From positions 1 through 36,070 of the forward strand of contig CAMPCZ010000005.1 in NCBI GenBank assembly GCA_946648015.1: a DNA stretch of 36,070 bases. The letters run 5' to 3'. The number at the start of each line of letters is the position of its first letter. Position 1 is the stretch's first letter. Source of the DNA: an uncultured Clostridia bacterium. GTDB taxonomy: Bacteria; Bacillota; Clostridia; Christensenellales; CAG-1252. The position numbers and the translations under genes are program-made. Under the pieces are notes generated by a model. It searched no databases. It was not told where the DNA came from and saw only the letters and a program-made list of their open reading frames with translations. This document shows positions 9,229 through 25,844 of this stretch, in pieces.

Positions 9229-9390
9229 TTATTTGCCGCAACCGCAGCCGCCGTGACCGAACATCTTGGGCGTATTGCACGAGCCGCAGCACTCCAAAAT
9301 GAGCAGCAAGGGCAAAATGTCGCACAGGTTGTTGCCGCAGCAGCACACGAGCAAAATGATCCAAAGATAATTGTCGCCGAAATTCATCAT
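9229..9390 (-). CDS. 53-aa cysteine-rich hydrophobic microprotein (absent from ORF track)
   Basis: Hand translation MMNFGDNYLWIILLVCCCGNNLCDILPLLLILECCGSCNTPKMFGHGGCGCGK*; SD GGAGGT 9 nt upstream of ATG; own minus-strand terminator. Confidence 0.75.
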   Translation of the reverse strand: MMNFGDNYLWIILLVCCCGNNLCDILPLLLILECCGSCNTPKMFGHGGCGCGK

Positions 9391-22100: not shown

Positions 22101-22135
22101 CAACAAAAAGTGGGGTACGCCCCACTTTTTTGTTG
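22101..22135 (+). terminator. Strong Rho-independent terminator after rplL
   Basis: AACAAAAAGTGGGG-tacg-CCCCACTTTTTTGTT. Confidence 0.95.
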
Positions 22136-22149
22136 CAGTCGTCGGGTCT

Positions 22150-23454
22150 ATGATAGCCACCGCTTGCATTGCGGGCGCCGCATTTTTGCTGCTGACGCTG
22201 TCCATACTGTTTTTGCCCACCCTACGTTTGGGCAAATTGCGCCTGTCCACCTATTGGATAGTGGCGCTTGTAGGCGCAGTCGTATTGGTTGCGTGCGGTT
22301 TTGCCTCGCCCAAAAATATATGGGAGCACCTCACCGCCACGGGCGACGTCAATCCTCTCAAGATATTGGCGTTGTTTTTCTCTATGACGTTTTTGTCGGT
22401 ATATTTGGACGAAGTGGGGTTGTTTCGGCATTTGGCGTCGGTATGTGCGGGGCGTGCGGGGCACAGCCAATGGTCGCTTTTTTTCGTTTTGTATGCGCTG
22501 ACTGCGCTGCTCACCGTTTTTACGTCCAACGACGTGGTCATTTTGACGCTTACGCCCTTCATTTGCTTTTTTTGCAAAAATACAGACGTGGACCCGGTAC
22601 CCTATCTCGTGGGCGAATTTGCCGCCGCTAACACTTGGTCGATGATGCTGGTCATCGGCAATCCCACCAACGTCTATTTGTCCACCTATTGGGGCATAGG
22701 CTTTGTGGAATACTGCAAGGTAATGGCGCTGCCTACGGTGGCGGCAGGCGTTGCGCAGGTGCTCATCATAGCCCTTGTGTTTTGGCGTAAAATGCGCCGC
22801 CCGCTGTCGGGCAATACCCAACTCTATGCCATAGAGAGCAAGCCCGATCTTGCGGTGGGTCTTGCGCATCTTTTGCTATGCCTTGCCTTTTTGGTGGCGT
22901 CCGGCTACGTGGGTATACCTATGTGGCTGGTCGCCGTAGCGGCGGCTCTATCGCTTGGCGTATGCGCCGTGGTGGTGCGCCTTGTCACCCGCAGTGGCTG
23001 GGGCTATCTGGGGCATACTTTGGCGCGCTTGCCGTGGCAGTTGGTGCCCTTTGTGCTGTCCATGTTCGTCATCGTCATTGCGCTCGATACCCAAGGCGTT
23101 TCGGGCGAAATAGCGCGCGTATTGGGGCAAAATGCCCCCATTTGGGCGTATGGCGGCGCCTCGGCCGTAGCCAGCAATCTCATCAACAACATACCAATGA
23201 GCATTTTGTTTGCCACGTTGCCGCAGTCTCTGCCCGCAATGCAGGCGCGGCAGGCGGTATTCGCCACCATCGTGGGCAGCAACGTGGGCGCGTTTCTTAC
23301 GCCCATCGGTGCCCTTGCGGGCATAATGTTTACCTCGCTTATTGCGCGCTATCAGGTAAAATACGGTTTTCGGCAATTCATAGGGTACGGTTTGCTCGTC
23401 GGACTACCCACCTTGGCCGCAGCGTTGGGTGTGCTGTGCGCCACCGCGCGTTAG
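22150..23454 (+). CDS. ArsB/NhaD (ion transporter superfamily) membrane permease
   Basis: Multiple TMs; LTVFTSNDVVILTLTPFICFF, GEFAAANTWSMMLVIGNPTNV, ASAVASNLINNIPMSILFA, GSNVGAFLTPIGALAGI; proposed ATG 22150. Confidence 0.75.
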   Translation: MIATACIAGAAFLLLTLSILFLPTLRLGKLRLSTYWIVALVGAVVLVACGFASPKNIWEHLTATGDVNPLKILALFFSMTFLSVYLDEVGLFRHLASVCAGRAGHSQWSLFFVLYALTALLTVFTSNDVVILTLTPFICFFCKNTDVDPVPYLVGEFAAANTWSMMLVIGNPTNVYLSTYWGIGFVEYCKVMALPTVAAGVAQVLIIALVFWRKMRRPLSGNTQLYAIESKPDLAVGLAHLLLCLAFLVASGYVGIPMWLVAVAAALSLGVCAVVVRLVTRSGWGYLGHTLARLPWQLVPFVLSMFVIVIALDTQGVSGEIARVLGQNAPIWAYGGASAVASNLINNIPMSILFATLPQSLPAMQARQAVFATIVGSNVGAFLTPIGALAGIMFTSLIARYQVKYGFRQFIGYGLLVGLPTLAAALGVLCATAR

Positions 23455-23492: not shown

Positions 23493-24380
23493 ATGAAACG
23501 CGCCCTCATTCTCAACAATGCCTATATGCAGTTGGATAGTTATCTCTATCAATCCCGACGCCTTGCCGAGGAGTTGGGTGCTTTGGGCGTGGAGACCGAC
23601 GTGCGGCGCAACGATTTTTTCGCCGTCGCCATAGATGACGCGGGGCACATAGACTTGCGCTTGGACAAGTACGATTTTTGTGTTTATTTGGACAAAGACA
23701 AGTACGTTCCCTATCTGTTGCAGGCCAAGGGCTTGCGGCTATTCAATAGTGCCGAGTCGGTAGAGGCGTGCGATGACAAGATGACCACGTTCGTGCGTTT
23801 GGCAGAGGCGGGCATTGCCGTGCCCTACACTTTGCCGGGATTGCTGTGCTTCGACAACGGTGCCGCCATTCCCGAGGCCGTGTATGCCGACGTGGAGGCA
23901 AGGCTCGGGTATCCTATGGTCGTCAAGTCGAGTTTCGGCTCGCTGGGCAAGGGCGTCTACAAGGTGGACGACAGGGCCGCGCTTTGCGACGTGCTCTCGC
24001 GGCTCAAATGCAAACCGCATCTCTTTCAGCGCTACGTGGGCACATCTTGCGGCCGCGACGTGCGCGTGCTGGTGATAGGCGGCGAGGTGGTTGCCGCCAT
24101 GCTGCGTCGCTCCGGCGGGGATTTTCGCTCCAACATCGAGTTGGGCGGTACGGCCACGCCCTATCGAGTGCCTGCCGCTCTTGCCGATGAGTGTCGCCGC
24201 ATCAGCGAATTGTTGGGGCTGGACTATTGCGGCGTCGACTTCTTGTTCGGGCCCGACGGCTTTGTGCTTTGCGAGGTCAATTCCAATGCCTTTTTCGGGG
24301 GGCTTGAGCGCACGACGGGCGTCAATGTGGCGCGATGCTATGCCGAATATATTTGTCGCACCGTCTACGGGAATATGTAG
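23493..24380 (+). CDS. RimK-like ATP-grasp ligase
   Basis: YPMVVKSSFGSLGKGVYKV, QRYVGTSCGRDVRVLVIGGEVVAAMLRR, DYCGVDFLFGPDGFVLCEVNSNAFFGGLERTTGVN. Confidence 0.85.
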   Translation: MKRALILNNAYMQLDSYLYQSRRLAEELGALGVETDVRRNDFFAVAIDDAGHIDLRLDKYDFCVYLDKDKYVPYLLQAKGLRLFNSAESVEACDDKMTTFVRLAEAGIAVPYTLPGLLCFDNGAAIPEAVYADVEARLGYPMVVKSSFGSLGKGVYKVDDRAALCDVLSRLKCKPHLFQRYVGTSCGRDVRVLVIGGEVVAAMLRRSGGDFRSNIELGGTATPYRVPAALADECRRISELLGLDYCGVDFLFGPDGFVLCEVNSNAFFGGLERTTGVNVARCYAEYICRTVYGNM

Positions 24381-24402
24381 TGTACGCTCAAAAAAATGTA
24401 TC

Positions 24403-24430
24403 AAAAAAGCGAGGACGTCCTCGCTTTTTT
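24403..24430. terminator. Bidirectional terminator (28-nt perfect palindrome)
   Basis: AAAAAAGCGAGGACGTCCTCGCTTTTTT between convergent genes. Confidence 0.92.
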
Positions 24431-24437
24431 GTCGTTG

Positions 24438-24575
24438 TTAGGATTTACCGCAATCCTTGGTGCTGTTTTTGCCGTTGCCTGCGGATTTGCCGCAATCCGT
24501 TGTCTTTTCGCTGCAATCGCTCGTTTTGCTCGTGCAATTCGTACTCTTTTTGACGCTTTTGGTTTTGCCTTTCAT
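24438..24575 (-). CDS. 45-aa heptad-spaced cysteine micro-ORF (only visible inside a longer minus-strand track ORF)
   Basis: MKGKTKSVKKSTNCTSKTSDCSEKTTDCGKSAGNGKNSTKDCGKS*; SD AGAGGT 5 nt upstream of ATG; stop lies 8 nt before the bidirectional terminator. Confidence 0.65.
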   Translation of the reverse strand: MKGKTKSVKKSTNCTSKTSDCSEKTTDCGKSAGNGKNSTKDCGKS

Positions 24576-24692
24576 AAATACCTCTTTTGCCGCACCTTGA
24601 TTTGCCGTAGCCGATGCGACATATTCAGTATGTGCAGCAATAGCCCGCCTACTCGCCGCGGCGTTGCCATTTTTTGGAGGCGGGGCTTGGCC

Positions 24693-24721
24693 GCATATCG
24701 CAGGCGATAGGGGCATATAAC
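24693..24721 (+). promoter_or_regulatory. Candidate sigma-E-like sporulation promoter of spmAB
   Basis: GCATATC (24693-24699) - 14 nt - CATATAAC (24714-24721), resembling sigma-E KMATATT-N14-CATACAAT; ATG at 24727. Confidence 0.45.
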
Positions 24722-24726
24722 ACAGT

Positions 24727-25323
24727 ATGAACGTAGTGTTTGCGGTGCTATTCGTATCGGGCGTGGTGTTGGTGGCGGTCTCGTCGCCCGACGCCTTGTT
24801 GGGCGTGTTGCTCGACGGCACTTCGGGTGCCGTTGCCTTGGCCATTCGCTTGGCAGGGGTGTACGCCTTGTGGCTGGGTGTGTTGCAAATATTGCAAGAT
24901 AGCGGCGCCGACCGCTTGTTGGCGCGCGTCTATCGCCCCTTGCTATCGCGCCTGTTTCGCGGCGAAAGCGAGCGCACGCAATCTCTTATCGGGCTCAACC
25001 TGACGGCCAACCTGTTGGGTTTGGGCGCAGCGGCCACGCCGATGGGTATAGCCGCTGTAGAGAGTATGTCGCACGGCGAAGCGGCCGCCACCGACAATAT
25101 GATTTTGTTCTTTATCCTCAACGTTACGGCGGTGCAACTGTTGCCCACCACGGTGATGGCGCTATTGGCGTCGCACGGCGCCGCCAATGCCGCAAGCATA
25201 GTTTTGCCGGGGCTTTTGAGTTCGCTTGCCACCGCCGTTTTTGGGCTGCTGACGGTGAATGTTGTGCGCATCGTCGGTGCCAAAATGCCCCAACGTATGC
25301 GCCAAAAACGATGCAAACGATAG
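24727..25323 (+). CDS. spmA: Spore maturation protein A
   Basis: GVYALWLGVLQILQDSGADRLLARVYRPLLSRLF; LNLTANLLGLGAAATPMGIAAVESM; FFILNVTAVQLLPTTVMAL. Confidence 0.92.
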   Translation: MNVVFAVLFVSGVVLVAVSSPDALLGVLLDGTSGAVALAIRLAGVYALWLGVLQILQDSGADRLLARVYRPLLSRLFRGESERTQSLIGLNLTANLLGLGAAATPMGIAAVESMSHGEAAATDNMILFFILNVTAVQLLPTTVMALLASHGAANAASIVLPGLLSSLATAVFGLLTVNVVRIVGAKMPQRMRQKRCKR

Positions 25324-25844
25324 TTTTACCATTGAATGCCGCCGACTATATATTGCCCGCCGTGCTGTTGGCGGTGGCCGTGGTGGGGCTGGTGTGCAAG
25401 GTGCCGCTGTTCGACAGTTTCGTCAAGGGAGCGGGGCGTGCGCTCAAGGTGGTAGCCGGCGTGTTTCCCTACTTGGCGGCGGTATTCGTGTGTGTACATC
25501 TGTTTGCCGCAAGCGGTTTGCAGGACAAGGTGGCCGCGTTCCTATCTCCCGTATTGTCGGCGGTGGGCATTCCTGCCGAGTTGGTGCCCTTGCTGCTGGT
25601 CAAACCGCTGTCCGGCTCGGGGTCATTGGCCGTGTTGGAGCAGATCATCGTGGACTACGGCGCCGACAGCGACGTTGCGCGCGCCGCGTCGGTGTTGGTG
25701 GGCAGCAGCGAAACGGTGTTGTACGTGGCCGCCGTCTACTTCGGCACGGTCAGCAACAAACGCTTGCGCTATGGTTTGCCCGTCGCTTTTGCTTGTACCG
25801 TCGCGGGAGCGCTTTTTTCGTGCTGGGCGGTGCGCTTTCTATAG
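25311..25844 (+). CDS. spmB: Spore maturation protein B
   Basis: VPLFDSFVKGAGRALKVVAGVFPYLAAVFV; KPLSGSGSLAVLEQII; GSSETVLYVAAVYFGTV; overlaps spmA. Confidence 0.92.
   Translation: MQTIVLPLNAADYILPAVLLAVAVVGLVCKVPLFDSFVKGAGRALKVVAGVFPYLAAVFVCVHLFAASGLQDKVAAFLSPVLSAVGIPAELVPLLLVKPLSGSGSLAVLEQIIVDYGADSDVARAASVLVGSSETVLYVAAVYFGTVSNKRLRYGLPVAFACTVAGALFSCWAVRFL

Follow-up and report, generated by a model that had tools for sequence, protein, structure and literature searches.

A lineage-restricted family of small basic, cysteine-bearing peptides with putative forespore-type promoters in an uncultured clostridial lineage

We lean slightly towards the view that the 45-aa microprotein encoded on the minus strand at 24438..24575 of the window (the whole 36,070-nucleotide stretch of DNA analysed here) is a lineage-restricted, forespore-expressed, basic and thiol-rich spore-core peptide that would resemble the minor SASPs. 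What already stands, on comparative sequence grounds, is the gene, its family and the type of promoter that precedes its members in the sister genus. The family was previously unnamed and, as judged from the searches below, is restricted to its lineage, being found only in the bacterial family to which the window belongs.

The ORF runs from an ATG at 24575 to a TAA stop at 24438-24440 and specifies cysteines at residues 14, 21, 28 and 42. Coordinates, strand and residues agree upon re-reading with those of the initial annotation, whose Shine-Dalgarno sequence (SD; AGAGGT) was likewise located, at 24580..24585 on the minus strand and 4 nt 5' of the ATG; an SD precedes all homologues. In-frame starts exist further upstream and would permit a 135-aa ORF from 24845, but the 45-aa form is preferred because of this SD and because of the position of the homologue's start. 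Only a few bases separate the stop from an intrinsic terminator at 24402..24431, which is indeed perfect and bidirectional, with a 13-bp stem, T-runs on both strands, -19 kcal/mol and z = -7.7, and which is common to the microprotein gene and a convergent plus-strand gene (23493..24380) for a RimK-family ATP-grasp protein of the alpha-L-glutamate ligase type (TIGR00768, 178.8 bits, cut-off 143.4). The latter is preceded by a gene for an ArsB/CitMHS-family transporter (22102..23454, plus strand). Divergent from the microprotein gene, as had been proposed, lie two plus-strand genes for Gate-domain proteins (PF07670) in the order spmA-spmB, starting at 24727 (spmA-like, 24727..25323, its SpmA match being under the Pfam cut-off) and 25311 (spmB-like, 25311..25844). 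No SD precedes spmA, and a putative sigma-E type promoter (24693..24721, plus strand, GCATATC-N14-CATATAAC) ends 5 nt from the ATG in the window. Comparable promoters precede spmA in further species of the genus (L003-L006), and in the clearest of the five species inspected the promoter ends about 5-6 nt from the ATG, implying that the mother-cell transcript of spmA may be leaderless. Elsewhere in the window are an ORF for a hydrophobic, Cys/Gly-rich product of 53 aa, which a strong SD precedes and no Pfam family matches (9229-9390, minus strand, MMNFGDNYLWIILLVCCCGNNLCDILPLLLILECCGSCNTPKMFGHGGCGCGK), and an ordinary ribosomal protein L10 leader (RF00557, 20946-21080, plus strand) 5' of rplJ.

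The window comes from a 1.74-Mb genome (G000), which we compared with five congeners within a family set of 20 genomes (G000-G019); all genomes compared are drafts. G001, the nearest congener by SpmA (74%), keeps the entire block ArsB-RimK-peptide-SpmA-SpmB, an ArsB homologue preceding RimK there too, and its syntenic peptide of 43 aa (MKTTKSNGKNTKGTTKSTKKSCAKSAATDCGTTDCGDSKKNCK) has a strong SD (GGGAGG) and its own bidirectional terminator hairpin directly 3' of the stop. The search in relatives for linkage to spmAB or the ATP-grasp gene, which had been suggested at the outset, thus yielded a homologue in the same block. In those remaining congeners whose SpmA was detected, neither the spmA nor the RimK locus contains a comparable ORF, and small Lys-rich ORFs were likewise not found at these loci in G003-G005 and the sister genus. 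With an HMM built from the two peptides, 396 genomes from the order were searched; this pointed to a sister-genus genome encoding MKQSNCKNCGSTKVVKKSTSVKKGASDCSNCGSSK, and through this sequence homologues of 33-37 aa came to light in 10 of the 13 sister-genus genomes, every one with a strong SD. In G014 the peptide gene directly adjoins a gene homologous (50% identity) to the ArsB-like one of the window. An 11-sequence HMM gave no convincing match beyond the two genera in the same 396 genomes, and neither Pfam nor NCBIfam has a family that matches the microprotein or its homologues. The weak matches from single-peptide and two-sequence searches of the genus, family and order, that in G010 excepted, were rejected upon reading their loci: those inspected were of low complexity and either lay in the frames of larger proteins or were without start and SD. 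SpoVA is encoded, but the microprotein gene missing, in G016 and in three near-complete congeners (G003-G005), so that retention of sporulation genes does not always call for it.

Since such peptides resemble one another through composition alone, similarity was judged against composition-preserving shuffles. With an HMM of the sister-genus sequences only, 2 of 20,000 composition-matched shuffles score as well as the G001 peptide and 58-113 of 20,000 as well as the window peptide; with G001 added to the HMM and the window peptide left out, 6 of 20,000 window-peptide shuffles do so, the low-complexity sequence making all these statistics weaker. The window peptide very probably belongs to the same family as the sister-genus genes. 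Most pairwise dN/dS values within the sister-genus family lie between 0.1 and 0.5 and a few are higher, examples being 0.04 for G018/G015 and 0.12 for G009/G013, which points to purifying selection on these homologues; the ratio between the window gene and its nearest homologue is 0.67, a value that is by itself not decisive. The dN/dS check that had been proposed therefore speaks for purifying selection among the sister-genus genes and leaves the comparison of the two congeners indecisive.

Promoters of the forespore sigma-F/sigma-G type have GHATR at -35 and a -10 of the form CATNNTA. All sister-genus genes carry GHATR-N17/18-CAWNNTA followed by an A, 18-26 nt 5' of the start codon, the -35 varying only where the consensus itself is degenerate. 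In C. difficile, an A downstream of the -10 is a mark of sigma-G (PMC3789822). Nine of the ten sister-genus genes match all six scored positions and the remaining one matches 5/6, against a background among 1,212 G007 genes of 0.3% for 6/6 and 1% for at least 5/6, with the proviso that the pattern was partly chosen after the sister-genus sequences had been viewed. The window gene would thus be the fairer test, and its putative site, with GAATA at 24622..24626, a 17-nt spacer and CAAATCA(A) at 24598..24604 on the minus strand, 22 nt 5' of the ATG, is suggestive only: it matches 5/6 positions (background 1%, or 0.4% at the same distance), at a distance within the range of the homologues. The region upstream of the G001 gene has no good forespore site (3/6). 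A strict B. subtilis sigma-G pattern is only weakly enriched in G007 upstream regions (4 matches versus a shuffled mean of 1.4), and the promoter argument thus rests on the homologues. In the sister genus, promoters of this class are also present at a neighbouring gene for a 45-aa protein and upstream of spoVAC, and a DacF-like gene has one too. Taken from these upstream sequences, expression of the window gene in the forespore is reasonably probable, and the early suggestion of a spore-associated peptide gains from the forespore-type promoters, the sporulation neighbours and the homologues.

The neighbouring gene encodes a second unnamed basic protein of 45 aa (L205-L215), found in the sister genus only (11/13 genomes), with the consensus ..NPTDxMIQANKDEAxSMLSLWGxKxRKHL.. 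and no Pfam or NCBIfam match, and is divergent from the Cys-peptide gene in seven sister-genus genomes. It would be leaderless, a forespore-type promoter ending exactly 5 nt from the ATG in 6 of the 8 upstream regions read. A short leaderless ORF also lies before or overlaps the start of spoVAC (L180, L182, L184, L185, L187) and begins exactly 5 nt past a forespore-type -10. Genome-wide in G007, the offset from forespore motif to ATG peaks at 5 nt (few sites), suggesting that leaderless sporulation mRNAs may occur in the bacterial family.

Could the window ORF be spurious, a chance frame in an intergenic region? The weak signal in the dN/dS of the congener pair would fit, but the conserved SD, the geometry of stop and terminator, the synteny and the homologous family effectively refute this, and we regard its probability as negligible. 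Because the syntenic homologue has its own SD and terminator and the sister-genus ratios are mostly low, the ORF is almost certainly a real gene, as the initial annotation had suggested. It is also conceivable that the microprotein is a protein of vegetative cells, small and basic and associated for instance with ribosomes or RNA, that lies beside sporulation genes by chance. Such a protein would be in keeping with the strong SD, the basic composition, the patchy tie to sporulation gene content and the lack of a usable forespore site at the G001 gene. However, forespore-type promoters precede 10/10 sister-genus genes, a search of the window found no sigma-70-type site for the gene, and the gene is not universal even within its genus; we consider a vegetative role quite unlikely.

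Other alternatives turn on the cysteines, whose heptad spacing had been read as a structural periodicity. Four cysteines fall into one residue class modulo 7 with P ~0.001 (~0.018 when summed over periods 4-12). This reading was rejected since the family has 3-4 cysteines at variable spacings (8-5-7 in G001, others in the sister genus), and the heptad is an accident of the window copy alone. The alignment of 11 members shows M1, K6, K9, K10, C21 and C28 (window numbering) to be invariant; the peptides, of 33-45 aa and strongly positive net charge, share a lysine-rich K-x2-KKS core, S/T richness and the two C-terminal cysteines. Most sister-genus members contain CxxC-x17/18-CxxC, which resembles a minimal zinc ribbon, and there is a weak resemblance to Zn_ribbon_3 (best E 0.0063) and TIGR04104 (E 1.4), as might be expected of a minimal zinc-binding peptide, zinc-ribbon- or metallothionein-like, that stores or buffers metal independently of the spore core. 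Yet three sister-genus members (G006, G015 and G018) have lost all or some of the N-terminal pair, so that a four-Cys zinc site is not family-wide, and CxxC pairs are absent from both window-genus members (G000, G001). A zinc ribbon has four conserved cysteines in two CxxC knuckles; only two are invariant here. Given in addition the lack of a significant family match and promoters of forespore-type appearance, such a zinc peptide is unlikely. The initial annotation had further entertained a RiPP precursor. Modification of such a precursor would fall to the adjacent RimK-type ATP-grasp or to an unseen radical-SAM enzyme. The ATP-grasp gene adjoins the peptide gene in two species and its product bears a weak resemblance to maturases of the MvdC/MvdD type (E 5e-8, well short of the cut-off), but a RimK homologue occurs in 19/20 family genomes, including those without the microprotein, and is not adjacent in the sister genus. 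No plausible radical-SAM protein with a CxxxCxxC motif is encoded nearby, the alignment has no division into leader and core, and SCIFF is not matched; for want of a linked maturase we rejected this reading, which is extremely improbable.

The preferred reading, a spore-core peptide, has to be seen against the sporulation genes of the host. The genus encodes sigma-G/sigma-F-type factors (PRK08215 SigG and PRK05572/TIGR02885 SigF match best, though short of the strict cut-offs), SpoVAC and SpoVAEB and, by our own reading of position and sequence, a SpoIIAB-like protein; SpoVA is encoded in 16/20 family genomes and in 8/8 near-complete ones. Alpha/beta SASPs (PF00269) were detected in none of the 20 family genomes G000-G019, the B. 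subtilis control being positive, and no member of the microprotein family matches PF00269. SASP genes are sigma-G dependent, and Galperin et al. describe a lack of every SASP gene in Spo0A-positive bacteria that do not form spores (PMC3533761). Either PF00269 fails to recognise SASPs that have diverged too far, or the bacterial family sporulates without them, or sporulation has been abandoned. This raises the question of how spore DNA is protected without recognisable alpha/beta SASPs, if such bacteria still sporulate. The microprotein family, which has no name and is in neither Pfam nor NCBIfam, extends the set of forespore-type genes of an uncultured lineage.

If the spore-core reading is right, sigma-G would switch the window gene on in the forespore, and the basic, thiol-bearing and probably disordered peptide would accumulate in the spore core. 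Perhaps its positive charge binds nucleic acid or other polyanions there, while its cysteines may bind metal (zinc) or cross-link upon spore oxidation; binding of nucleic acid or metal in the spore core is a tentative proposal that we doubt somewhat more than we credit. It is conceivable, if distinctly improbable, that the family, paired in the sister genus with the second 45-aa forespore-type peptide, took over protection of spore-core DNA through lysine and thiol chemistry. If true, such lysine- and thiol-based protection would be unlike that by classical SASPs; no description of a cysteine-rich core SASP was found in the open-access literature.

Among known systems, SCIFF (six cysteines in forty-five residues) RiPP precursors are Cys-rich peptides of ~45 aa from Clostridia, and the window peptide shares length, Cys-richness and host group with them, but its four cysteines are arranged differently, NCBIfam has no match for it and no radical-SAM partner gene was seen in the window. 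Zinc-ribbon mini-domains (Zn_ribbon_3, TIGR04104 cxxc_20_cxxc, TIGR04272) have CxxC pairs ~17-20 residues apart, as do most sister-genus members; the microprotein family differs in having no significant match to them and unconserved CxxC pairs, with none in the window peptide. Compared with SASPs (PF00269, SspH, SspI, Tlp), the microprotein is without sequence similarity, shorter and rich in Lys, Ser and Cys, whereas alpha/beta SASPs, to our knowledge, have no Cys. It is nevertheless like them in small size, lineage variability and, perhaps, control by sigma-G, SASPs being short, soluble, lineage-variable proteins with sigma-G promoters whose genes are readily duplicated and lost (PMC3533761).
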